Under the pieces are notes generated by a model. The model was not told where the DNA came from, did no database searches, and saw nothing but the letters and a program-made list of their open reading frames with translations. A DNA stretch of 64,000 nucleotides from Duganella zoogloeoides (lineage in GTDB: Bacteria; Pseudomonadota; Gammaproteobacteria; Burkholderiales; Burkholderiaceae_D): NCBI RefSeq assembly GCF_034479515.1, contig NZ_CP140152.1, forward strand, positions 2,542,001-2,606,000, given 5' to 3'. Each line of letters begins with the position of its first letter. Positions within the stretch are counted from its first letter, which is position 1. A program made the position numbers and the translations under genes. Of the stretch, positions 7,882 through 64,000 are shown piece by piece.

Positions 7882-8129
7882 AAATCGCAATCATCTTGGG
7901 TACGCTGCTCCTGTCGGGCTGCGGCAGCGCGCCGCCGGTCACGCAAACCGTCTACGTGCCGTTGCACACGCCGTGCGTGAAGGACGTGCCGGCGCGGCCG
8001 GACTACGAATTCGACAAGCTGGCACTTGACTCGTCGGCTGGTGAGAAGGTTCTGGCGCTGGCGCGAGACTGGACATCCGGGCGAAAATACCTGGAATTGC
8101 TTGAAGCAGTAGTCGCTGGTTGTTTATAG
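7878..8129 (+). CDS. Rz1-like outer-membrane spanin lipoprotein (o-spanin)
   Basis: 83 residues beginning at the ATG that overlaps the i-spanin stop. A short signal peptide ends in LLLSGC, a good lipobox, so Cys would be lipidated and the protein anchored in the outer membrane. A Pro-containing stretch and two Cys-containing segments follow. With the upstream Rz-like gene it should form the spanin pair. This is the last phage gene in the + direction before the AT-rich cargo. Confidence 0.8.
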   Translation: MKIAIILGTLLLSGCGSAPPVTQTVYVPLHTPCVKDVPARPDYEFDKLALDSSAGEKVLALARDWTSGRKYLELLEAVVAGCL

Positions 8130-8145
8130 GAAATGAAATCCTTCC

Positions 8146-8838
8146 TCAGCAGGGGGCGCGGTGCTGTTCAAGCTCGCTTTCATTTTCCTCCAGCCATACT
8201 TCGAGCTTTAAAAACAAATCCTCTGAATGCTCGTACTCGTTTTCGAACATACTCATCGACAGAATCGTCCCTTCAATCTGCATTCCTGAATATAGTTCAC
8301 GTGTTTTATTGTTGAACGACGTGATCATCGTTTTCGGGTCTGTGTCAGAATATGATAATCTCATGCCTTCGTAGTTCGGATGGGCGCTTTCCGACAACCA
8401 GTTATATATTTTTTCAATTCCCTTGTATCGCTTTTCGCAGTGCTTTAACACTGTGACGATATTAATGGCTACCCACGCTGTGGATTCGTTCTTGGAGCCA
8501 TGCATCAGTGCAAGCACCTTCTCCTCGAACTGGAGAAAGCTAAGTTTTCTTGTGGTTACGTCGCCGATCAATTTATCTTGATATATGAGTAGGGAAATTG
8601 TTTCAATTGCACTGCGAAGTAATATTCTTGCCCCCATCGGTTTGTGTTGAGAATGTAAAAACCAAGACTGCTCCAGAAGATCAACGAATCGCCATGCCAC
8701 GGTTTCCCTATTGCATAAGACGTAATAAGTCACTTTCCATTTATGTGCAATGGGATTGCGCTCCCGCAAAGCGATGATATCTATCTGCTTGCAGAGAGTG
8801 TTTTGATAATCATTAATTGCTTGCTTTATGCTATCCAT
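8146..8838 (-). CDS. Hypothetical AT-rich prophage cargo protein
   Basis: 230 residues on the strand opposite the lysis genes and much richer in A+T than its surroundings, which marks it as a separately acquired moron. The protein looks soluble and largely helical. It has an N-terminal region with Lys/Gln/Asn, a central AIETISLL block, a SESAHPNYEGM segment, and an acidic C-terminus rich in Glu ending in EQHRAPC. No signal peptide or membrane segment is visible and I recognise no catalytic motif. A clear Shine-Dalgarno is not visible before the ATG. A role in lysogenic conversion or phage defence is possible from position only. Confidence 0.6.
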   Translation of the reverse strand: MDSIKQAINDYQNTLCKQIDIIALRERNPIAHKWKVTYYVLCNRETVAWRFVDLLEQSWFLHSQHKPMGARILLRSAIETISLLIYQDKLIGDVTTRKLSFLQFEEKVLALMHGSKNESTAWVAINIVTVLKHCEKRYKGIEKIYNWLSESAHPNYEGMRLSYSDTDPKTMITSFNNKTRELYSGMQIEGTILSMSMFENEYEHSEDLFLKLEVWLEENESELEQHRAPC

Positions 8839-9159
8839 AATTAACCAAGAATAATTTCTTCAATGGATCGGGTGGGGCGTATGGCAACGGCCTTCCGGCA
8901 CTGCAGCGTGCCCATATAGCATAGCTGTTCGATGCCGAGCCAAGCAGTGAGCGCCACCCCTTCGAAATTTGCGCCTAAGCTCAAACCTATTCGGACCTCA
9001 GCAAACCATCGGCCTTTGCAACCAGCCAGACGTTATCAAGTTTTGGCAAGGTCGCTCAAGGCCTGAGCGCTGCACCCTTCATTTTCTTGTAATTTCTTTG
9101 AATATTATACTTATTAAAACTTAAATTCGAGCAGAAACATTCGCCTTATTATTTCCGGT
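8839..9159. other. Gap of 321 bases between two cargo genes
   Basis: No reading frame worth calling lies here. The left part (about 8870-9060) is higher in GC than the flanking genes, and the right part (about 9080-9140) is AT-rich. The stretch should contain the promoter of the reverse-strand gene that starts at 8838. I see no clear hairpin, repeat or terminator. Confidence 0.5.
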
Positions 9160-9990
9160 TCAAGTTGCGATACCAATTTCATTTTGTCTCCATTCCATGC
9201 CGGTTTCTGAGCAATAAATCCCAATCCCTGGACTGCTCAGAACGCTATCAGAAATTCTCATTTTACCTATTGTTGATCCAGTCGGCGTGAGTTGGACATT
9301 GGTTCCTCCGATGGCCATATTTATTTCTATCGCAGTCATGGGAAAATCATCGCGATATTTTTCAACCATATTTTTTTTGTATCTTTTCTCTGCCTCCGCT
9401 AAATTTTTTATGACCAAAAATCTTAAATGCAAATAATCTCCGTTCGCATATTTTATTTCCAGTTCCTTTCCTTGCGGCGGGCAACGAAGGTCGATCGGAT
9501 TGCCAATATTTTCCCATGAGTGAGATTTAATAACTAATCTTTCTTCTGGGAGTAAACTTAGTAGATTTACTGTTAACCGCAAATAACCTAATTCGTCACG
9601 ATTGAAAGCAATGACATCATATTCATCAATAACTAAAATCCTATAGGTTTCATAAAAAACATTTCCTCCTACAACCGCGAGTAGTTTGTTGCGGAGCCAT
9701 TCGAGATCACCTTTTACCTTTTCTGAATTTACCCTATTCGCTTTTAGTGCGTGTAGTTGCTCATTGGTGTAATTTCCGCCATCAGCTTTTGCATGATGAA
9801 CCGCGCACAAGGCAATCATGCCAGATGGTTCATTATGTGCGCGAATATTAACCGGCGGATCAAAATGATGGTACTCTAAAAAGGGAATGCCACATCCCTC
9901 GACAGGGCATCCGAAACCCACTTCTTCGCGCAATGCATGTTTCACTGCATCAGGAATAGATGTTCGTTTGTTTTTTAAGTTATTGTTCAT
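9160..9990 (-). CDS. HNH-type nuclease-like cargo protein
   Basis: 276 residues if translation begins at the ATG at 9990, which has an AGGGCGG site six bases upstream. An in-frame ATG at 10047 would add 19 residues. The N-terminal module carries Cys28, Cys33, a YHHFDP motif (His41-His42) and a later ALCAVHH motif (Cys62, His65-His66), the zinc-finger HNH pattern of a beta-beta-alpha-metal nuclease. Residues from about 90 on form a strand-rich region of unknown function, more than half the protein. The gene is AT-rich and lies opposite the phage genes, so it is probably transferred cargo. Phage defence, DNA processing or a non-nuclease use of the fold are all possible. Confidence 0.7.
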   Translation of the reverse strand: MNNNLKNKRTSIPDAVKHALREEVGFGCPVEGCGIPFLEYHHFDPPVNIRAHNEPSGMIALCAVHHAKADGGNYTNEQLHALKANRVNSEKVKGDLEWLRNKLLAVVGGNVFYETYRILVIDEYDVIAFNRDELGYLRLTVNLLSLLPEERLVIKSHSWENIGNPIDLRCPPQGKELEIKYANGDYLHLRFLVIKNLAEAEKRYKKNMVEKYRDDFPMTAIEINMAIGGTNVQLTPTGSTIGKMRISDSVLSSPGIGIYCSETGMEWRQNEIGIAT

Positions 9991-10255
9991 GTCCGCCCTA
10001 AGTGATTTTGAATTTTTTTTCATTTCTGAATATTCGATATGTATCATGCACCTGCATTTCTCCCTCTACTCAAACGTGTCTGAAGCGGTTCGATTATTCC
10101 GATTCTTGCCGCCTTACCGCCTGTGAGGATGACGAACTTCGAAGAAGGTTTAGCCTGTTCTTAACTTGCCAAACTTACACCCTCTTCAACCCACACGAAG
10201 GTACCAGTTTTCGATCAACATTTGGAGGTTTAAACGTCGGAACACCTATTTGTTA

Positions 10256-10275
10256 TACTGTATTTATATACAGTA
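10256..10275 (+). promoter_or_regulatory. LexA (SOS) box
   Basis: TACTGTATTTATATACAGTA differs at one position from the E. coli consensus TACTGTATATATATACAGTA and is an almost perfect palindrome with CTGT-N8-ACAG ends. It ends 15 bases before the start codon of the next gene, where LexA would block transcription. A -10-like TATACT overlaps its left end. Confidence 0.85.
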
Positions 10276-10290
10276 TTTATGGAGGGGGAG

Positions 10291-10971
10291 ATGAGGGCTT
10301 GGATCTTGCGCCGGCGCGAGGGCGGTGCATACCTGCCCGAGCCGGTCCGGGTGGGCGTCGAGCCGGCGCCGTTCGAACTGCTGGTGGTCGAGGTCACGGA
10401 CCAGGGCAAGCGCCGGCCGTCGAAGGTCGCGCGCCTCTACGCGCCCGGCACGAAGATCATCGTGGCCGAGCTGGCCAGCGTGCAGCTGCTGTGGCTGAAA
10501 GGATTCGAGTTCGTGCTGCACGGCGTGGACGTTACTGCCAGCGAGCGCGGGCCGGTCCACGCGGCCCAGTCTTGGATGTGCAAGCTGGATGAGCCGCTCC
10601 ACGCGGTGGGGTACAGGATGCGCGGCATTTACGATCGCGGCCTAGTGCTACCGCGTCGCCAGCTCATGGATCGACCGTCCTATGTCAGCGAGGGCAAGCT
10701 GACGGTTGGCGGCGCCGTGGACGAGCGCATTGGCCGCCACGCTATGCGGGCAGAATTCACCAATGCCAGCCGACACGTCGGCACGCTGCTCGACTGCGAC
10801 CTGGAATGGATGAGCGAGGAGCGATTCCAGTTGTCCGGGTTCCAGCACTACGACGCCTACGGCGACGCACCGGCGCGGCTGCTGCGCCAGGGTTGGCTGA
10901 TCGAGTTCGACATTAAGACCCCAGAGCAGGTTGCATTCATTCGCTCGCTGGCGCCAAAGCCGCAGCGGTAG
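10291..10971 (+). CDS. SOS-controlled prophage protein of unknown function
   Basis: 226 residues from the ATG at 10291, placed five bases after a strong GGAGG site. An in-frame ATG at 10279 lies upstream of that site and is less likely. The protein is soluble, rich in Arg, Val and Leu, with an N-terminal strand-rich half and a C-terminal half containing a WMSEERFQL segment and an IEFDIKTPEQ segment. I do not recognise a family. GC content returns to the high level of the phage structural genes. The LexA box at 10256 implies expression on DNA damage, together with prophage induction. An SOS-linked function such as DNA processing or modulation of induction is inference only. Confidence 0.7.
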   Translation: MRAWILRRREGGAYLPEPVRVGVEPAPFELLVVEVTDQGKRRPSKVARLYAPGTKIIVAELASVQLLWLKGFEFVLHGVDVTASERGPVHAAQSWMCKLDEPLHAVGYRMRGIYDRGLVLPRRQLMDRPSYVSEGKLTVGGAVDERIGRHAMRAEFTNASRHVGTLLDCDLEWMSEERFQLSGFQHYDAYGDAPARLLRQGWLIEFDIKTPEQVAFIRSLAPKPQR

Positions 10972-11054
10972 TCCCAAAAGCCTGTGTAAATCCCAGTGTA
11001 ATCCGGTGCAATTCAATGGACTTTCTTGGCCCCCACCAAAGAACTCTCCCTATG

Positions 11055-11130
11055 AGAGCACTGCATTTTGGTGGCGGCAATGGCATTCACACTGCAGGGG
11101 TCGCAAGTTCGAAACTTGCACTTCCCACCA
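11055..11130 (+). other. tRNA-Val(CAC)-like remnant, probable attachment site
   Basis: The 3' half of a tRNA is clear: anticodon positions CAC then AC, TGCAG (3' anticodon strand), GGGTC, a GCAAG/CTTGC T-stem with TTCGAAA loop, ACTTCCC acceptor strand and ACCA end at 11130. A matching 5' piece GAGAGCA-CTGCA-TT (about 11054-11067) is present but separated by 20 extra bases (11068-11087) inside the anticodon loop. No acceptor 5' strand (expected GGGAAGT) is found. The gene is therefore not functional here. It probably marks the crossover region, with the intact tRNA expected at the other prophage end. Confidence 0.6.
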
Positions 11131-11214
11131 AGAATATCCTTTAATTTCAACGGGTTGCATCGCGCAGGCGAGCTCTGTTACAAATTTGGGCAATGCGAAA
11201 TTCGCTGCCCTATG

Positions 11215-11242
11215 AAAAAACCGGCCGAGGCCGGTTTTTTTT
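11215..11242. terminator. Bidirectional intrinsic terminator
   Basis: AAAAAA, then a CCGGCC stem, GA loop, GGCCGG stem and eight T residues. The A-run and T-run make it usable from both strands. It lies between the tRNA-like remnant and the integrase stump. Confidence 0.85.
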
Positions 11243-11246
11243 CGCC

Positions 11247-11456
11247 CTAATTCTCGTCAGATCTGGGGAACTCATCCACGCGTTTTTCATTGCTTTGCTG
11301 ATATAGCTGGAGCAGGCGCTGGCGCTTGTCATCCTCCAGCCCGGCGTGCACCCATTTGCCATAGGTACGCATGACCAGTGTCGTATCAGCGTGGCCCAGC
11401 CGGCTCACGACATACAGCGGGTTGGCGCCGAGCATGAGCGGGCCCTGGCGGCACAT
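11247..11456 (-). pseudogene. C-terminal stump of a phage-type tyrosine integrase
   Basis: 69 residues containing the end of a tyrosine recombinase: a LGHADTT block (third catalytic motif) followed by MRTYGKWVH with the nucleophilic Tyr. The catalytic Arg and the core- and arm-binding domains are missing, and the frame closes upstream. The stump lies just outside the probable attachment site of the prophage. It may come from an older element integrated at the same tRNA. Confidence 0.75.
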
Positions 11457-11590
11457 GCATGCCGCGCAGCCGAATAATCATCGACGCGACTCGTTGGCGC
11501 TTAAAATCCCGCGCCCGATTCGCTAATGTGCGGGAACTAATATATTAGTGCTTTCTAGCACTCCAATCATTACCGGTCACCGGCAGACAC

Positions 11591-13418
11591 ATGAACATAC
11601 CCGATCAAACGCCCGCCCGTGCGCGGCAACGGTTCGCCCTGGCCTTGCTGGCCATGGCGGGTCTGCCCTTGCTGGCGCTGGCTGCAGGGCCCACGGTGGC
11701 GCTGACGCCGCCGATGGGCTGGAATCCCTGGAATGCATTCCGTACCGAGGTCACCGAGGCGAAAATTTTGGCGGTGGCGGAAAAGCTCAGGCAGTCCGGC
11801 CTGGCTGATGCCGGCTACCGCTATGTCAATCTCGACGATGGCTGGTGGCTCAAGCGCCGCGCGGACGGGCGCATCGAAGTGCGCACCAGCATGTTCCCCA
11901 GCGCGACTGCCGGCAACGGCAATACCACGCTGCGCCCGTTCGTCGACCGCCTGCACGGCATGGGCCTGAAAGCCGGGATCTATACCGAGATCGGCCGCAA
12001 CGCCTGTTCGCAGGCCTGGGACGTCTAATCTCCCAACCTGCCGGTGGGCACCCGGGCCGAGCGCGAGGTGGGCACCTACGGCTACGGCGCACAGGACATG
12101 CAATTGCTGTTCGGCGAATGGAATTTCGATTACGTCAAGGTCGATGCCTGCGGCCTGGCGGACTACGCGGCCGGCCAGCGGCACGTGCGCGACGGCACGT
12201 ACCGCCCGCTGGGCCCCTACATCGTACGTGGCCGCCCGGAGGAGGCGGCGTCCGACCAGGTGGAGGCGCTGTACGCGGACCTAGCGCAGCAACTGGCCAA
12301 GGTGCGCCCGCAGGGCGACTACGTGCTGTCGATCTGCGCGTGGGGCGAAGCGCGCGTGGCCGACTGGGCAGGCAAGTACGGCAACATGTGGCGCACCAGC
12401 GCCGATATCCGCGGCACATGGAGTTCGATGCTGCATAACTTCGACAGCGCCGCCATCCGCCCGCTGTATGCCGGCCCCGGTCGCTGGAACGACCCGGACA
12501 TGCTCAAGGTGGGCATCGGCGAGTTCGATGGCGCGCACCTGGTCGCCGCCCGCGCCCACCTGTCGATGTGGGCGATCATCAACGCCCCGCTGATACTGGG
12601 CGCGGACCTGCCCCGGGTGCCGCAGACGATCCTCGACATCATGGGCAACCGCGACGTCATCGCCATCAACCAGGATCCGGCGGGCCACCAGGGCGTGACG
12701 GCGGCGCGCAATGGAGACACGCAAGTCATCGTCAAGACCCTGGCGCAACCGGGCCGCAAGGCGGTGGCGCTGATCAACCGTGGCGATCAGCCGCGCAGTG
12801 CGGCGATCTCGGTGGCGCAGCTGAACCTCGATCCCACGGCGCCGCTCACGGTGCGCAACGCGTGGACCGGCCGCGTGCTCGCGCTGGACGGCCAGCGCAT
12901 CGTCACCGGGCTGGCGCCGCGCGAAACCGTGCTGCTGGTGGTGGAAGGGCGTCCGCGCGTGGCTGGCGGCGCCTACGTGACCGAACTGCCGGCCCGCCTG
13001 CGCATCCTGGACGATGGCAGCGCCGCGCTGCCGATGGCCTTGCGCGCGCAGTGGGTGCCGGTACAGGCCAACGCGGCGCCGTCGGGCGCGCCGCTGGTCG
13101 TCGATGGCCAGCCGGTGAACCATGGCATCGGCGCCCTGGTCAACTCGCGGCTGCAGGTAAGGCTGGACGCGGAGTTCGGGCGCTTCCGGGCGCAGGCCGG
13201 CGTGATGGATGTGGCCACGCTGGGCGCCGCGCCGCGCCGCGCCGCGCAGCGTCACCTGGCAAGTGTATGGCGACGGCAAGCCGCTGTTCCGGCAGGCAGG
13301 CGCCCGCGCCGATATCGACGTGGACGTGCGCGGTGTCCGCCAGCTCGAGTTGCAGGCGGAAGCGCCGCCGGGTACGCCCGGCGTGATCGCGTGGGCGGGC
13401 GCCGAGGTGACGCCATGA
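11591..13418 (+). pseudogene. GH27 alpha-galactosidase with NPCBM-like domain, disrupted twice
   Basis: When intact the protein would be a secreted GH27 alpha-galactosidase: signal peptide at about residues 12-32, a TPPMGWNPWNAF block, a YVKVDACG nucleophile motif, an RWNDPDML acid/base motif, a C-terminal beta domain, and an NPCBM-like carbohydrate-binding end (TWQVYGDGK). Two lesions are visible. An in-frame TAA at 12026-12028 follows QAWDV, and coding homology continues immediately after it. The frame also shifts at the (GCCGC)4 repeat at 13226-13245, after which the NPCBM end continues in another frame to the stop at 13416-13418. The next gene starts inside that stop (ATGA), so the pair was once an operon for galactoside or hemicellulose side-chain removal. 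Confidence 0.85.
13226..13245 (+). repeat. (GCCGC)4 pentanucleotide repeat at a frameshift
   Basis: Four perfect tandem GCCGC units. Two units fewer, or one more, would restore the reading frame between the GH27 body and its NPCBM-like end, so slippage of the repeat explains the frameshift. Confidence 0.8.
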
Positions 13419-57327: not shown

Positions 57328-59424
57328 ATGCACAACGACGCCAAGTACGACACCACCAACGAACCAGCCAGCGAGCCACAGGCCAGCCGCCGCACGCTGC
57401 TGAAAATGGGGCTCGCTTCCGCCTCGACCCTGTCGGTCGGCAGCCTGCTGGCCGGTTGCGGCGGCGGCAGCGATCCGGTAAGCGCTGCCCCGGCCCCGGC
57501 CCCCACTCCCGCAGCGAAAATCTCGAGCTTCGCGCTGGCCGTGCTGCCCGACACCCAGTTCTATTCACGCTACGCCACCTCGGGCGAGAGCAACCAGTAC
57601 CAGCGCCACTACGGCAACGAGCCGTTTGCCGCCCAGACCAACTGGGTCGCCCGCAATGCCCAGGCGCTCAACATCCCGTTTCTGATCCACCTCGGCGACG
57701 TGGTGGACCAGGTGGGCAAGCCGGAACAATGGAAGGTGGCCGACAGCGCCATGCAGGTGCTGGAAGGGGCCAAGCTGCCGTACTCCATCCTGGCCGGCAA
57801 CCACGATGTGCTCAACGATCTCGATTACAGCGGCGACCAGTCGCGTGGCACCGACGCCCAGCGCGTGCTGGCCAACGAACCCTATCTGCAATGGTTCGGC
57901 ACGCGCCGCGCCCAGCGCCAGGCCACCTTCGGCGGCCGCGATGCCAGCGGCTTCCACGAGTACCACATCTTCACCGCGCAGGACCAGCGCTTCCTGGTGC
58001 TGTCGCTGTCGTGGCGCATCTCGGATGCGGGCATCGCCTGGGCACGCAAGGTCCTGGCCGACAACCCCACGCTGCCGGCCATCCTGGTCAACCACCAGTT
58101 GCTCAATATCGCGCCCGACGCCGTCAGCCCGCTGGAAACCGAGTACGGCAAGATGTTGTGGGAAAAGCTGATCCGCGATAACGACCAGATCTTCATGACT
58201 CTCAACGGCCACCACCACGGCGCCGCGCGCCTGACCAAGACCAACAACTTCGGCAACCCGGTCGAGGAAATGGTGGTCGATTACCAGATGGCCTACCAGG
58301 GCGGCAACGGCTTGATGCGCCTGTACGAGTTCGACCTGACCAACAAGCAGATCAAGGTGCTGTCGTTCTCGCCGTGGGTGCCGATGAAACCGGCCGACAC
58401 GCTCAACGCTTTCGATCGCGCCGTGCTCACCGAAACTAACGAGGTTTTCACCATCAGTCTCGATTTCGCCAAGCGCTTCGCGCGCTTCAACTCCACCTTC
58501 GGCACCGGCCAGGCCACGGTGGCGTCGTCGCTGGTGGACCAGGCCAAGGCATTGGTATTGAAGGGTTACACGGAACCGGCGGTGGTCACACCGGTCGCGC
58601 CCAAGGACGCAGACGACTACCCGAAAGTGGCATCGACCGTGGCGCACTGGCGCTTCTTCGGCGGCGCCGACGGCGCGGTCGTTGCGCCGGGTACGCGCAT
58701 TGCGGACGTCACCGGCGCCAACCCGCTGGTGCGCGACGCCCTCAATCGCGGCGGCGTGAAAAATGCGGAAGCAGGCGACATCGTGTGGAGCGCCGACCGC
58801 CACCGCCTGTCGTCGGCCCCGGGATCGGTCAGCTTCCTCAACACCGACAAGAATGTGCCGCGCCTGAGCTATTTCATCACCGACGCTTCGGCCGCGATCA
58901 ACGCCCAGACCTTTGCCACCAACGGTTACACCATCGAAGCCTTCATCAAGATCAATCCGGCCTGGGTCAACTCGAAACACGCATGGATGAACATCATGAC
59001 GCGCGACGGCGTACGCGGCAACCTGGTCGGCTTCAACGGCGGGGACGCCGAATCGCCGCCGCTGCTGTTTGCGATTTCGAGCCTGCGCGAAGTGCAGTGG
59101 GAAGTGGTGCCCGACGTGACGGGTACCCGCGGCGGCCTTGCCAGCTGGTCGGGCGAGATCATTGCCGGCACCTGGGTGCACATCGCCATCGTCAACGACC
59201 CGGTCACGCACGACACGGTGATGTACGTGGAAGGCGCGCCGGTACTGCGCAACAGCAGCAACGTCGTGGGTTTGGCGACACTGTCGGCGACGTCGCCGTG
59301 GGTGGTCGGTGGCGGCTCGTGGGATGGCGAACGGGCCGATGGCTTCTTCGGCAATATCGGCGAGATCCGCGTGGCGTCGGGCGCGTTGAAACCGGCGCAG
59401 TGGCTGACGGCGCGCCGTACCTGA
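57328..59424 (+). CDS. Secreted metallophosphoesterase with LamG-like domain
   Basis: 698 residues with a Tat-like signal (ASRRTLLKMGL) and lipobox (LLAGC), so probably a Tat-exported lipoprotein. The calcineurin-like phosphoesterase domain has the metal motifs LPDTQFYS, HLGDVVDQ, GNHDVL, VNHQ and NGHHHG. Residues about 420-698 form a concanavalin/LamG-like end (HWRFFG, SSAPGSVSFLNTD, YTIEAFIKIN, WVHIAIVND). The combination suggests a cell-surface phosphatase or phosphodiesterase that binds sugar. The substrate is unknown. Confidence 0.85.
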   Translation: MHNDAKYDTTNEPASEPQASRRTLLKMGLASASTLSVGSLLAGCGGGSDPVSAAPAPAPTPAAKISSFALAVLPDTQFYSRYATSGESNQYQRHYGNEPFAAQTNWVARNAQALNIPFLIHLGDVVDQVGKPEQWKVADSAMQVLEGAKLPYSILAGNHDVLNDLDYSGDQSRGTDAQRVLANEPYLQWFGTRRAQRQATFGGRDASGFHEYHIFTAQDQRFLVLSLSWRISDAGIAWARKVLADNPTLPAILVNHQLLNIAPDAVSPLETEYGKMLWEKLIRDNDQIFMTLNGHHHGAARLTKTNNFGNPVEEMVVDYQMAYQGGNGLMRLYEFDLTNKQIKVLSFSPWVPMKPADTLNAFDRAVLTETNEVFTISLDFAKRFARFNSTFGTGQATVASSLVDQAKALVLKGYTEPAVVTPVAPKDADDYPKVASTVAHWRFFGGADGAVVAPGTRIADVTGANPLVRDALNRGGVKNAEAGDIVWSADRHRLSSAPGSVSFLNTDKNVPRLSYFITDASAAINAQTFATNGYTIEAFIKINPAWVNSKHAWMNIMTRDGVRGNLVGFNGGDAESPPLLFAISSLREVQWEVVPDVTGTRGGLASWSGEIIAGTWVHIAIVNDPVTHDTVMYVEGAPVLRNSSNVVGLATLSATSPWVVGGGSWDGERADGFFGNIGEIRVASGALKPAQWLTARRT

Positions 59425-59425
59425 T

Positions 59426-60961
59426 CTACAGGTCGGCCAGGCTGGCGCGCGTGCGCGCCGCCTGTTCGCGCACCCCATCGAGCACCGGCCCATCCATGCG
59501 CCTGAGCTGCTGATACACCATCCCCAGGCGGTGGTTGCCGGCCAACCGATCCCGGTTGCGGTCGAAAAAATCCCAGTACAGCGCGTTGTACGGGCAGGCG
59601 CGCTCGCCGGTGCGCGCCTTTTTGTCGTAATGGCACCCCTTGCAGTAATCGCTCATCTTGTCGATATACGCGGCGCTCGAGACGTACGGCTTGGTCGCCA
59701 GCAGGCCGCCGTCGGCGAACTGGCTCATACCGAGGGTGTTGGGCAGTTCCACCCATTCGAAGGCGTCGATGTACACGCCCAGGTACCAGCCGTGCAGCGC
59801 CTGCGGCGACAGGCCGGCCAATAGCGAAAAATTCCCGATCACCATCAGGCGGTTGATGTGGTGCGCGTGCGCGTGTTCGAGCGACTGGCCGATGGCAGTC
59901 GCCAGGCAGCGCATGCGCGTGTCGCCGGACCAGAACCAGTGCGGCAGCGGCTCCTCGTGGCCGAAGGTGTTCAACTGGTCGTAACCGGGCATGCGGTGCC
60001 AGTACACGCCGCGCACGTACTCGCGCCAGCCGAGGATTTGCCGTACATAGCCTTCCACCGCCGCCAGCGGCGCCGCGCCATCGGCCAGTGCCTGCACCAC
60101 GCGATCCACCACCTCGTGCGGAGCGATCATTTTCACGTTCATCGCGAACGAAAGCAACGAGTGGAACAGGCGCCAGGCCTTGAAGCTCATCGCGTCCTGG
60201 TATTGGCCGAAGTGGGGCAGCGCGTGTTTGACGAAGCGTTCCAGTTGCGCCAGCGCTTCGTCGCGGTTCAGCGGCCAGCGCAGGTCGGCCGCATTGGGCG
60301 CGCCGAAACTATGCGCGCCGGATGCCTCGATGCTCGCCCACAGCGCGCTGTGGTCGTGCGACTCGCGCAGGTCGGCCGGTTCCCACGGGATGCCTTTCCA
60401 CGCCTCGCGGTTGTCGTGGTCGAAGTTCCACTGGCCGCCCGCCGGCTTGCCGGTGTCCGAGACCAGCACCTTGTGGCGCAGGCGCATGTGGCGATAAAAG
60501 TGTTCCATCACCCAGCTGGTGCGGCCGTCGAACAGCGCCGCCGCCTCGTGGCGCGCGGTGTAAAAATGCTCGGTATCGGCCATCGCGGACGCAATGGTCA
60601 AACCGGCTGCATACGCCGCCAGTTGCCGGTCGAGCCGGTACTCGTCCGGCGCCTGCCAGGCGAAGTTGCTGGCGCCATACAGCGCCAGCAACCGGTCCAG
60701 GTTGGCCGGCAGCGATTGCAGGTTGTCGGGATCGTCGATGGTCAGATAGTGCACCCGGTGGCCGGCGTCGCGCAGGCGCCGGGCGAAGTCGCGCATGGCG
60801 GCAAAGATGGCGATGATTTTTTGTGCATGGTGCAGCACGTAGTCGGTTTCCTGCCGCACCTCCATCAGCACGAACACTACGCCGGGGTCCGGCGCCCGGA
60901 ACCAGCTGTGCAGGCAGTTGAGCTGGTCGCCCAGCACCAGCTTGAGCGAGGCGGCGCTCAC
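59426..60961 (-). CDS. FeS-type bacterial cryptochrome/photolyase
   Basis: 511 residues starting at a GTG, four bases after the BLUF stop. The N-terminal alpha/beta domain has LVLGDQLN and the C-terminal helical FAD domain has WREYVRGVYWHRMPGY, GDTRMRCLATAI, LMVIGNFSLLAG and WVELPN. CKGCHYDKKARTGERACPYN carries three of the four Cys that bind a 4Fe-4S cluster in FeS-BCP proteins such as Agrobacterium PhrB. These repair (6-4) photoproducts in DNA or act as light sensors, and bind a lumazine antenna. Confidence 0.9.
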   Translation of the reverse strand: MSAASLKLVLGDQLNCLHSWFRAPDPGVVFVLMEVRQETDYVLHHAQKIIAIFAAMRDFARRLRDAGHRVHYLTIDDPDNLQSLPANLDRLLALYGASNFAWQAPDEYRLDRQLAAYAAGLTIASAMADTEHFYTARHEAAALFDGRTSWVMEHFYRHMRLRHKVLVSDTGKPAGGQWNFDHDNREAWKGIPWEPADLRESHDHSALWASIEASGAHSFGAPNAADLRWPLNRDEALAQLERFVKHALPHFGQYQDAMSFKAWRLFHSLLSFAMNVKMIAPHEVVDRVVQALADGAAPLAAVEGYVRQILGWREYVRGVYWHRMPGYDQLNTFGHEEPLPHWFWSGDTRMRCLATAIGQSLEHAHAHHINRLMVIGNFSLLAGLSPQALHGWYLGVYIDAFEWVELPNTLGMSQFADGGLLATKPYVSSAAYIDKMSDYCKGCHYDKKARTGERACPYNALYWDFFDRNRDRLAGNHRLGMVYQQLRRMDGPVLDGVREQAARTRASLADL

Positions 60962-60965
60962 CGGA

Positions 60966-61391
60966 TTACGCGCGGCCCAGGATCGAGGCAGCCGCCATCA
61001 GCTCGTCGATCAGCGCCAATGAGCTTTTGCCCGACAGCGCGTGCGGATTGAACTCGGGCAGCGCCGAGTAGCGCAGCAGGGTGCCGGGATTGAGCTTGTT
61101 CAGGTTGACCTGGCCCATGGTCCAGCCGGAATAGCGGCGCTCGCAGATTTCCTCGTAGTGCAGCAGGATGGCGTCGGTATGGCGCGGGTCGCGCAGGATC
61201 TTCGCATACAGCGCGTTGACCTGCTCGCGTCCTCCTTCGATCACTTGCAGGTACAGGCGGTCGCTGTGGCACAGCACCCCGGTGATGCCGTGCCTGGGGT
61301 TGTAGTTGTGCGACTGCTGCATGATGGCGGTAATGCCGCCCACGGGCGTATCCCTGGCGGCGTGGCTGGCGTACAGAAGGCGGACAAGCAT
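60966..61391 (-). CDS. Short BLUF blue-light receptor
   Basis: 141 residues. The FAD-binding BLUF domain has the residues expected for blue-light signalling: Tyr7, Asn31, Gln49 and Trp90. After it come about 50 residues without an output domain. Such short BLUF proteins act by binding partner proteins. The gene is embedded between FolE and photolyase on the same strand with gaps of 4-40 bases, in an operon with a MerR regulator. Confidence 0.92.
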   Translation of the reverse strand: MLVRLLYASHAARDTPVGGITAIMQQSHNYNPRHGITGVLCHSDRLYLQVIEGGREQVNALYAKILRDPRHTDAILLHYEEICERRYSGWTMGQVNLNKLNPGTLLRYSALPEFNPHALSGKSSLALIDELMAAASILGRA

Positions 61392-61431
61392 GCTGGTATC
61401 TCCCGGAGGTTGGAGGTTGATTAACGTTTGA

Positions 61432-62139
61432 TTAGCGTTTGATGAGCGAAAGGAACTCGCGGCGCAGCGCCGGGTCCTTGAGGAAGGAGCCGTGCATCAC
61501 ACTGTTGATCATACGCGCGTCCATGTCCTTGACGCCGCGCCACTGCATGCAAAAATGGTCCGCTTCCATGATCACGGCCAGGCCGTCCGGCTGCATTTTT
61601 TCCTGCAGCAGGTCGGCCAGCTGCACCACGGCTTCCTCCTGGATTTGCGGGCGGCTCATGATCCAGCTGGCCAGGCGCGCGTATTTCGACAGGCCGATCA
61701 GGTTCGAATGCTGGTTGGGCATCACGCCGATCCATACCTTGCCAATCACCGGGCACAAGTGGTGTGAGCACGCGCTGCGTACCGTGATCGGGCCGATGAT
61801 CATCAACTCGTTGAGGTTGGCGGCGTTGGGGAACTCGGTGACCGGCGGCATCTCGACATAGCGGCCGCCGAACACTTCGTTCATGTACATTTTGGCCACG
61901 CGGCGGGCGGTGTCCTGCGTATTGTGGTCGCTCACGGTGTCGATCACCAGGCTCTCGAGCACCTTCTGCATATGGCCGCTGACTTCATCGAGCAACTGGT
62001 CTAGCTCGCCAGGTTCGATATAGGCGGCGATATTGTCGTTGGCGTGGAAGCGCGTGTTGCTGGCCACCAGCCGTGCGCGGATGCGTTCGGAGGCGGTGGT
62101 GGTGACAGGCAGGTATGCCGGTTGCGGCTCGGTGGTCAT
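61432..62139 (-). CDS. folE: GTP cyclohydrolase I
   Basis: 235 residues from the ATG at 62139. A TTG at 62151 would extend it. First enzyme of the folate/pterin route, converting GTP to dihydroneopterin triphosphate. Zinc ligands are seen in ACSHHLCPV and HFCMQWRGV. In light-regulated clusters an extra copy of folE is commonly linked to photolyase, where it may supply pterin chromophore. The N-terminal 40 residues are extended compared with E. coli FolE. Confidence 0.92.
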   Translation of the reverse strand: MTTEPQPAYLPVTTTASERIRARLVASNTRFHANDNIAAYIEPGELDQLLDEVSGHMQKVLESLVIDTVSDHNTQDTARRVAKMYMNEVFGGRYVEMPPVTEFPNAANLNELMIIGPITVRSACSHHLCPVIGKVWIGVMPNQHSNLIGLSKYARLASWIMSRPQIQEEAVVQLADLLQEKMQPDGLAVIMEADHFCMQWRGVKDMDARMINSVMHGSFLKDPALRREFLSLIKR

Positions 62140-62167
62140 GCGAAAATCCAATCAAAAAAGAGAGTTG

Positions 62168-63163
62168 CTACTGCGGCGGCAGCGGCAGGCCTTCGGCATA
62201 GGCCAGCCGCTCCAGCGCCTGTTCCATCAGCATGCGCGCATGGCCGGCGCTGCGTGCCAGGTCCTGGTGCAGCTTGGCGTCGGCGGCATTGCGGCTCACG
62301 CACTGGGCGCTGTACCGCTCGAAGCTGGTCAACATCAGCAGTATATCCGCCAGGTGGCGCGGGCATTCGCAGTCGATGCTGGTGGACATGGCCGCCAGTT
62401 CCGCCAGTTGCTGGTCCTCGAGACGGCGCGGCGCGACGGGCAGGGCCGGCGGCGGCGGCGGACGACCGCCGCCGGCAAACGCGGTGGCGCACAGCAGCGC
62501 TACTTCGGCAACGTCCGATGGCGCCCGCGCCACCAGGCAGTCCTGCTCGCGCAGGCGGCGCACGGTGGCGCTGTCGCAAAAACGGTAGAGCACCACCACC
62601 GCGCGCACGTTCAGCGCGGCGCGCGTGGCCATTACTGCCGGCAGCGAGTCCGCATTCATCTCGGACGCTTCGATCAGCAGCAGGTCGGCCGTCACGCCGG
62701 CCAGCGCCTGCGGCGCCTGGTGCAGGTACTGGCAACTGGCCACGATGTCGAGCACGGGGGCAGTGCGCGCCGCCGCCAGCTGGCGGGTGAGGGCGCCGCC
62801 GGCGATCGCCAGGCGCAGCAGGCGCGGTTCGCTTTCCACCGGCGGCGCCACGCCGGCCAGGGCCAGCAGCTCGTCGATGTCGAGGCGGGCCACGGTGGAA
62901 ATCGCGTGGCCCTGGTCCACCGCGCGCTTGAGCAGGCCGAGGCGCCGTACCTGTTCGGAAGAATACAGGCGCTGGCCGCGCGGCGAACGGCCGGCGTCCG
63001 ACACGCCATAGCGCCGCTCCCACACGCGCAGCGTCTCCACCGGCAGGCCGGCCAGGCGTGCCGCCACCCCGCTGCGGTAGCCGGCGCTGGTGCTGGGCGA
63101 ATTGTCGTCGGAGTCTGTCACGTTGGTTCCTGTCGGTTGGTGGCCGCATTTTAACAGTTTCAT
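62168..63163 (-). CDS. MerR-family LitR/CarH-like regulator lacking the B12-binding motif
   Basis: 331 residues from the ATG at 63163. An in-frame GTG at 63121 would remove 14 residues. The MerR winged-helix region (about 30-95) has VETLRVWERRYGV, GQRLYSSEQV, and AVDQGHAISTVA, close to LitR/CarH. The C-terminal part is alpha/beta as in B12-binding regulators, but no DxHxxG motif for cobalamin is seen. It therefore cannot use adenosylcobalamin in the CarH manner. LitR relatives of this kind in pseudomonads depend on a separate photoreceptor. Probable repressor of the cluster. Confidence 0.8.
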   Translation of the reverse strand: MKLLKCGHQPTGTNVTDSDDNSPSTSAGYRSGVAARLAGLPVETLRVWERRYGVSDAGRSPRGQRLYSSEQVRRLGLLKRAVDQGHAISTVARLDIDELLALAGVAPPVESEPRLLRLAIAGGALTRQLAAARTAPVLDIVASCQYLHQAPQALAGVTADLLLIEASEMNADSLPAVMATRAALNVRAVVVLYRFCDSATVRRLREQDCLVARAPSDVAEVALLCATAFAGGGRPPPPPALPVAPRRLEDQQLAELAAMSTSIDCECPRHLADILLMLTSFERYSAQCVSRNAADAKLHQDLARSAGHARMLMEQALERLAYAEGLPLPPQ

Positions 63164-63283
63164 GCCTGTGAGCTACATTGTCCCGGTCATGAACCGCTTT
63201 TTAATCCTTTCTCACAGCTTTTCAGCATATCTTCGCCAGTATACTGGGACATCGGAAGAACAGGTAACCAAGAAAGTTTTGAA

Positions 63284-64000
63284 ATGATCGTTACGAGACC
63301 CAATGTTGCAGTCATCGGTGGCGGCCTGGCCGGGCTGTCGTGTGCCCGCCACTTGCAGGACGCCGGCTGCCGTACCACCGTGTTCGAGAAGGCGCGCGGC
63401 CCCGGTGGACGGATGAGCACGCGACGGGGCGCCGACTGGCAGTGCGACCACGGCGCCCAATATTTCACGGTGCGCGACAACCGCTTTCGCGACGAGGTGG
63501 CGCGCTGGGAAGCGGCTGGCGTGGCCGGCCTGTGGGAACCCCGGCTGGTGGAGCTGACGGCGGCAGGCACTTGCGCGAGAAAGGCGCCGGACAGCGTGGC
63601 GCGTTTCGTCGGCATTCCACGCATGAGCGCGCCGGCCGGCTGGCTGGCGTCGAACCTGTGCGTGCATAGTGGCCATACCATCGTCGATATGCAGCACGAT
63701 CGCGCCGGCTGGCGCCTGAAGTCGCAAGAGCATGGCATGCACGAGGACCGTTTCGACGCAGTGGTGCTGGCGGTGCCGGGGCCGCAGGCCACGGTGCTGC
63801 TCGCGCCGCTGTTGCCGCTCACGGCCCGGCAGACGCCAGCCGACATGCTGCCTTGCTGGACCCTGATGCTGCGCTACCGTACGCCAGGCATCCGTTTTGC
63901 GCCGGGCTACGATGCCGCTTTCGTCAACCACGGACCGCTAGCCTGGATTGCCCGCGATGGTTCGAAGCCGGGCCGGCAGGGCAGCGAAGCGTGGGTGCTG
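63284..64000 (+). CDS. FAD-dependent oxidoreductase, renalase/amine-oxidase type, partial
   Basis: The frame starts at the ATG at 63284 and runs to the window end, giving 239 residues. The dinucleotide-binding motif VIGGGLAGLSCA and an FEKARGPGGRMSTRR segment are present, then DHGAQYFTV, typical of the NAD(P)/FAD-dependent renalase-like family. It is divergent from the LitR-like regulator across 120 bases and is probably light-controlled. Such genes accompany photolyase clusters in many proteobacteria. Confidence 0.8.
   Translation, partial: MIVTRPNVAVIGGGLAGLSCARHLQDAGCRTTVFEKARGPGGRMSTRRGADWQCDHGAQYFTVRDNRFRDEVARWEAAGVAGLWEPRLVELTAAGTCARKAPDSVARFVGIPRMSAPAGWLASNLCVHSGHTIVDMQHDRAGWRLKSQEHGMHEDRFDAVVLAVPGPQATVLLAPLLPLTARQTPADMLPCWTLMLRYRTPGIRFAPGYDAAFVNHGPLAWIARDGSKPGRQGSEAWVL

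Follow-up and report, generated by a model that had tools for sequence, protein, structure and literature searches.

Gene organisation of the locus

The window analysed here is a stretch of 64,000 nt of the Duganella zoogloeoides genome, and four genes at its end are located on the minus strand. The first encodes a LitR-like MerR regulator (62168–63163), which is 331 aa as called, with a GTG at 63121 as its probable start (giving 317 aa), since in relative L034 the frame of the upstream ATG runs into a stop codon and a TGTTAAAAT-like box is located there. It is followed by a divergent GTP cyclohydrolase I (61432–62151, PF01227, alternative ATG at 62139), designated FolE*, a short BLUF protein of 141 aa (60966–61391, PF04940, 98.8 bits) and a 511 aa photolyase/cryptochrome of the FeS type (DPRP, 59426–60961). 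The spacing between these genes is 16 nt (28 nt with the FolE ATG at 62139), 40 nt and 4 nt, respectively. A NAD/FAD-dependent oxidoreductase gene (FADox) starts divergently at 63284 on the plus strand and extends beyond the window, with a length of 353 aa in stretch L032. All five genes of the original prediction were thus confirmed, together with their orientation. The order MerR-FolE-BLUF-photolyase was found again with the divergent FADox in G120, G089, G599 and G593 among the matches listed, and in G040, where the FADox was not detected; since the order recurs in these five genomes, the arrangement is not due to chance. The photolyase matches PF04244 and combines a DPRP domain with four conserved cysteines (Cys 352, 440, 443 and 456), a pattern which we take to be that of FeS-type enzymes, in agreement with its earlier assignment.

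The divergent promoter region contains an operator-like direct repeat with an 11-bp period (CGGTTCA-N4-CGGGACA, 63179–63196, minus strand), about which the original prediction was silent. A CGGTTCA-N4-CGGTTCA version is present in many relatives, and the operator-like repeat was detected at 34 of 52 close MerR loci, a count from which nine loci judged to be duplicates were excluded and in which some duplicates are still included. As the pattern was taken from Duganella-type promoters and then counted, the Duganella-type counts are circular, which does not apply to the sites in other genera. Another repeat count covered 164 loci, with some places included twice and a shuffled control based on single bases. 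At more distant MerR loci with a BLUF gene (200–280 bit class) the repeat was found in none of six, and LitR control of those loci is therefore unsupported.

The MerR protein resembles class III LitR regulators

The MerR protein consists of an HTH, a receiver-like domain (residues 113–232) and a C-terminal three-helix domain. For the HTH, CarH was one of two tied best PDB matches and ranked first in the Foldseek list, the middle domain has a known, receiver-like fold, and the C-terminal helical domain gave no Pfam match and no clear solved relative in the PDB. This last domain carries the signature C265-E-C267...Y284-S-x-x-C288...D295...H299, and nine residues (C265, E266, C267, Y284, S285, C288, D295, H299 and E314) were invariant in all 63 aligned MerR proteins, with identity down to 33%; rows L104, L133, L155 and L157 were excluded from alignment A2 because of internal stops. 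The DxHxxG motif of the adenosylcobalamin-binding class I CarH/LitR proteins is absent, and neither B12-binding Pfam domains in general nor PF02607 (B12-binding_2), a trait of class II LitR, matched any of the 63 members (the window protein and 62 aligned relatives) at E ≤ 0.1, which bears out the earlier description of a LitR/CarH-like MerR protein without B12 binding. A gene for a short LOV protein, the partner of class II LitR, was not found in the genome by an exact-motif scan, in which the sole NCRFLQ-type site belonged to a 575 aa LOV histidine kinase. With its CarH-like HTH and a C-terminus unlike known domains, though with a recognisable middle domain, the protein appears from its sequence to be most like the B12-less class III LitR proteins. 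Relatives in Burkholderia arboris and B. anthina (35.7% identity over residues 29–326 in a pairwise comparison) contain the C.CP.H motif, and the annotated one is located near genes for a photolyase, FAD oxidoreductase, SDR, GTP cyclohydrolase I and fasciclin.

FolE* and the short BLUF protein

The BLUF protein consists of the BLUF domain without the EAL fusion characteristic of BluF, and no other BLUF match was found in the window's genome. Residues Y7, N31, Q49 and W90 are intact in this short protein, as had been predicted, and so is M92. Its nearest solved relatives are of the PixD type (residues 3–131 aligned to Tll0078), and its BLUF domain, photoactive Tyr/Asn/Gln and short C-terminal part are those of a PixD-type short BLUF protein. 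In BLUF proteins linked to FolE, Y7, N31 and Q49 were invariant (55/55) and W90 and M92 conserved in 98%, and these proteins share C-terminal residues (N101, L105, L106, G121, E130, L131 and A135) that were rare in 19 unlinked BLUF proteins.

The FolE* protein matches PF01227 with 145.4 bits, which is below the NCBIfam folE cut-offs, but it aligns with solved bacterial FolE and has intact zinc/catalytic motifs (C-x-H-H, CSHH at 128; H-x-C, HFC at 199), as expected for a GTP cyclohydrolase I. Among the five 'canonical' FolE rows to which FolE* was compared, L179 represents a fragmentary FolE* copy. No other PF01227 match and no FolE2 were found in the window's genome, and in 55 of the 66 genomes examined, that of the window among them, no GTP cyclohydrolase I (PF01227) other than FolE* was found. 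An N-terminal extension was present in all 64 aligned FolE* sequences, ten of which have no BLUF gene in the fetched stretch; as these ten retain the extension, a role as BLUF-specific docking site was ruled out.

FolE* and BLUF genes are linked across the Burkholderiales

Within 195 genomes of the family, a BLUF gene was located directly 3′ of FolE* on the same strand at 53 of 59 FolE* loci, with 17–189 nt (median 25 nt) between the matched parts. Conversely, 53 of the 105 BLUF genes in these genomes were paired with FolE* and 52 were not. Two sets of 20 BLUF places gave 12 and 14 that were FolE-linked, but these were chosen by hand among the matches listed and were mostly short and high-scoring, so that the family-wide counts are less biased. 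FolE-linked BLUF proteins were found in at least ten family codes of the order. A FolE-BLUF pair is also present in Cupriavidus metallidurans CH34 (L236). On a BLUF tree (64 rows, quick method, with a long-branch warning), the FolE label required three changes compared with a mean of 16.6 after shuffling, with none of 500 shuffles as low, while the MerR label changed seven times among the FolE-linked rows, a count that cannot separate gain from loss. When the genes around 58 cassettes identified by homology were clustered, minus five loci skipped as duplicates, MerR was present in 17 loci, and no further gene was common to most neighbourhoods, leaving aside antisense and frame-shifted shadows as judged by letters and distance. 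BLUF proteins of this kind are usually encoded next to FolE and not MerR, which was not mentioned in the original prediction. A literature search did not find the FolE-BLUF cassette in print.

A LitR operon that may have acquired a FolE*-BLUF cassette

We propose, with a probability of roughly 45%, that a light-stress operon under a class III-type LitR took in a FolE*-BLUF cassette, with BLUF acting on FolE* and LitR on transcription. LitR would bind the 11-bp direct repeat and repress the divergent genes in the dark, it would control transcription of both FolE* and BLUF, and light would lift this repression via the Cys/His domain of LitR or indirectly. The central element is that FolE* would be the standing partner of BLUF, which may adjust the activity or assembly of GTP cyclohydrolase I in blue light, although the conserved pairing may reflect co-regulation alone. 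For the physical interaction we can offer an analogy in five-fold symmetry. PixD crystallises as a decamer of two pentameric rings (PMC5899715), and GTP cyclohydrolase GCH1 is a decamer of D5 symmetry with a GFRP pentamer on either side (PMC7750480); PixD-like BLUF rings might attach to the FolE decamer at its five-fold axis, in the way that GFRP binds the animal enzyme. A further-reaching and rather unlikely reading is that BLUF is a light-dependent regulatory subunit, whose rings cap FolE* and place the first step of folate/pterin synthesis under blue-light control in the many Burkholderiales in which no GTP cyclohydrolase I other than FolE* was detected, the unit being additionally controlled by a light-responsive LitR in Duganella and relatives. 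If the linkage reflects function, a blue-light receptor would be coupled in many Burkholderiales to the enzyme of the committed step towards folate, frequently where no other GTP cyclohydrolase I gene was found, and light may tune folate production. Short BLUF proteins would then gain a metabolic target, and light control of folate would be testable with two small proteins.

The original prediction had BLUF taking the place of the LOV partner of LitR. In this alternative, BLUF is an anti-repressor that binds the B12-less LitR in blue light, comparable to short LOV/class II LitR and BluF/BluR, and FolE is a mere member of the regulon. The lack of a short LOV gene in the exact-motif scan is consistent with this, as is the recurrence of MerR-FolE-BLUF in the same direction beyond the genus, in a second genus of the family (six genomes among the matches listed) and in at least four of family f46, of which G479 has an internal stop in its FolE copy. 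The seven changes of the MerR label, gain and loss not being separable, suggest that these neighbours may have met repeatedly, and the receiver-like domain of LitR recalls PixE, the PixD partner, which is response-regulator-like (PMC5899715). The expected co-occurrence of short BLUF and B12-less LitR thus held outside the genus, but only in part, as BLUF follows FolE* instead. Among the MerR matches listed (80 places in 66 genomes at approximately 95 bits or more, with HTH-only matches and second pieces dropped), MerR was located within 3 kb of just 11 of the 53 FolE*-BLUF pairs, and 39 of the 66 MerR genomes had no such pair and 24 no BLUF match at all. Moreover, MerR-FolE* occurs without BLUF in G003 and G108, and the invariant residues and Cys motif are identical whether or not an aligned relative has BLUF. 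We consider direct antagonism of LitR by BLUF unlikely.

A quite unlikely alternative is that LitR senses light itself, via a ligand or metal on the invariant C-terminal Cys/His residues, a mechanism suggested before for class III LitR, with BLUF and FolE* as light-induced targets that have separate roles. This is consistent with the invariance of the nine C-terminal residues and the two Burkholderia relatives, around which no BLUF gene was found in the fetched stretches, and one of which has the similar neighbourhood described above. Burkholderia class III LitR is reported to change its own absorption in light (PMC9758184) and to require a chromophore other than B12 (PMC6739363), so that by analogy the window MerR may sense light without a partner. 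However, LitR self-sensing leaves unexplained the adjacency of BLUF and FolE* in the 26 of 53 pair genomes that had no MerR match among those listed, and a helical domain without a clear solved relative makes a metal site a guess. Very improbable, finally, is that the target of BLUF is a third, unlinked one, its linkage to FolE* merely providing co-expression. BLUF partners do vary elsewhere (AppA-PpsR, BluF-BluR and PixD-PixE; PMC5899715), but the linkage holds at nearly all FolE* loci of the family and over at least ten family codes, with no other gene common to most neighbourhoods.

Comparison with known light-responsive systems

Direct antagonism of a MerR-type repressor by a BLUF protein, as originally proposed for this locus, is a principle already known from BluF/BluR of Escherichia coli, to which the locus is likened by description (PMC3509220); BluF is however a BLUF-EAL protein, and FolE is not named for BluF/BluR in the abstract. 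Similarly, PixD/PixE of Synechocystis shares the short BLUF type, but functions in phototaxis, and neither FolE nor MerR is named in the text seen of PMC5899715. In the GCH1-GFRP complex, a GTP cyclohydrolase I decamer has a partner with five-fold symmetry, which serves as a model for the working of the proposed complex, without a claim of similarity between GFRP and BLUF. The class III LitR of Burkholderia multivorans, as described in PMC9758184 and PMC6739363, shares a B12-less C-terminus unlike known domains, the likeness of motif and of one annotated neighbourhood coming from the other Burkholderia relatives; the difference is the BLUF gene joined to the operon here. Closest in layout is PmlR2/PmSB-LOV of Pseudomonas mendocina (class II, PMC9758184), where a B12-independent LitR/MerR repressor is encoded near a short blue-light receptor, and the two pmlR loci are also near genes for a photolyase, FAD oxidoreductase and folE. 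The receptor there is a LOV protein instead of a BLUF protein, the window MerR has receiver-like and Cys-helical domains in place of a B12-binding_2 match, and the published PmlR2 site is TGTACA-N12-TGTACA, as opposed to the 11-bp CGGTTCA repeat found here.

Organisation of the operon

Near the window end, genes for the B12-less LitR-like regulator (MerR, 62168–63163), a divergent GTP cyclohydrolase I type (FolE*, 61432–62151), BLUF (60966–61391) and a DPRP/FeS-type photolyase (59426–60961) follow each other on the minus strand, with gaps of 16 (28 when counted from ATG), 40 and 4 nt, and a FAD oxidoreductase gene is divergent from 63284, matching the arrangement originally described. The photoactive BLUF residues described as intact (Y7, N31, Q49 and W90) were present, as was M92. 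MerR probably starts at GTG 63121, since the frame of the upstream ATG hits a stop in a relative (L034) and a TGTTAAAAT-like box is located there. The window's genome (6.32 Mb, one contig) contained one BLUF match and a single match to MerR at E ≤ 0.001; the closest named relative among the matches listed, which may omit nearer ones, was the Duganella phyllosphaerae MerR (90% identical). A metallophosphatase-type gene with a Laminin_G_3 domain (57328–59424, plus strand) is convergent to the photolyase, and has the same position in five Duganella relatives. Elsewhere, positions 8001–12000 have a GC content of 0.509, versus 0.645–0.686 in the remaining window, with two foreign-looking minus-strand ORFs (230 and 295 aa), the longer with an HNH-like stretch by eye.

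Genomic linkage of BLUF, FolE* and MerR

A survey of 195 family genomes gave 105 BLUF matches in 78 genomes, 59 loci with window-type FolE (FolE*, E ≤ 1e-45) in 58, and 80 MerR matches that were near full length or large partial hits in 66. BLUF was directly downstream at 53/59 FolE* loci, the six others being in G003 (two), G108, G121, G008 and G086 (one each), with the G086 locus at the end of its contig; 52/105 BLUFs lacked a link to FolE*. Co-occurrence of BLUF and MerR was seen only in part: the order MerR-FolE-BLUF recurs, but MerR was within ≤3 kb of just 11 of the 53 FolE*-BLUF pairs (10 upstream on the same strand), 26 genomes had a pair and no counted MerR match, and BLUF was absent from 24 of the 66 MerR genomes. 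MerR-FolE* without BLUF was also found (G003, G108). FolE-linked BLUFs extended to nine further family codes, and MerR-FolE-BLUF was present in four genomes of another family in the order, f46 (G359, G322, G533 and G479, the last with an internal stop in FolE). FolE-BLUF also occurred in Cupriavidus metallidurans CH34 and Cupriavidus sp. EM10. On a BLUF tree of 64 rows, made by a quick method and with several long branches flagged, the FolE label required 3 changes versus 16.6 when shuffled, and the MerR label 7 changes within FolE-linked rows.

Several fetched loci had other arrangements. A TspO-like gene, as read from the letters, precedes FolE-BLUF in the same orientation in L108, L196, L202, L250, L251 and L256. 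In L255 (G609) the gene directly after FolE* encodes an FeS-type photolyase, and BLUF was found neither between the two nor nearby. Two records labelled as MAGs of Klebsiella pneumoniae and Rickettsia typhi (L116, L167) contain a relative of the window MerR and are probably mislabelled bins, and a 7-kb Psychrobacter plasmid (L239) carries two tandem BLUF genes.

FolE* as the GTP cyclohydrolase I

FolE* was the sole PF01227 match in the window's genome, where a FolE2 search, confined to the genus, found none. Canonical FolE (231–240 bits) was present in 35/40 genus genomes, one low-completeness genome had no FolE match, and four (G000, G089, G599 and G593) had only FolE* (about 146 bits), all within a MerR-FolE-BLUF-photolyase operon. 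Among 66 chosen genomes, 55 had a single PF01227 match of the FolE* type, adjoined by BLUF in 54 (exception G121); all 12 family genomes of this set with same-strand MerR upstream of FolE-BLUF lacked canonical FolE, and the four f46 genomes with MerR-FolE-BLUF retain it. The CxHH and HxC residues are conserved in FolE*, and an RFHANDNI-type N-terminal extension was present in 64/64 FolE* and missing in four full-length canonical copies aligned. GTP cyclohydrolase I is normally required for folate synthesis, and complete repression in the dark therefore seems unlikely in the window's host.

A possible BLUF-FolE* complex

FolE* is the usual neighbour of window-type BLUF, and we infer that it is also its partner. 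The closest solved BLUFs are PixD types; in crystals, PixD is described as a stack of two pentamers (PMC5899715), and GCH1 is described as a D5 decamer with a GFRP pentamer on either side, two in all (PMC7750480). Given these structures, a BLUF ring sitting on the FolE* decamer would be a natural model, likened to GCH1-GFRP, where the decamer has a five-fold partner. BLUF could alternatively act on MerR as a light-dependent anti-repressor, with FolE a mere regulon member, which we consider doubtful, at odds of about one in four; the recurring gene order would fit this, as would the receiver-like domain of MerR, since PixE, the partner of PixD, is response-regulator-like (PMC5899715). BLUF/MerR switching as such is already known from BluF/BluR (PMC3509220; also named in PMC9758184). 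Searching titles and abstract starts of the open-licence literature found neither a LitR, BLUF and MerR pairing nor FolE-BLUF (GTP cyclohydrolase, folate, pterin), and an earlier mention of the latter elsewhere is possible.

An operator-like repeat at MerR promoters

Aligned MerR promoters share the direct repeat CGGTTCA-N4-CGGTTCA (period 11 bp), with CGGTTCATGACCGGGACA as the window copy (63179–63196). The 164 MerR loci (2.5 Mb) contained 61 such sites, some places being counted twice, with a site near the MerR start in 45 loci; single-base shuffling predicted 1.3 sites in the full 2.9 Mb set. The repeat was present in 34/52, 3/32 and 0/70 loci of the closest, middle (200–280 bits) and most distant class of similarity to the window MerR. 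In the closest class it occurred in 13/14 loci with BLUF versus 21/38 without, and therefore tracks MerR rather than BLUF; none of the six middle-class loci with BLUF had it. A slightly relaxed pattern gave no sites in fetched loci without window-type MerR. At least three more sites precede genes for secreted proteins (L043, L053 and L060), which appear to be fasciclin-type as read from the letters.
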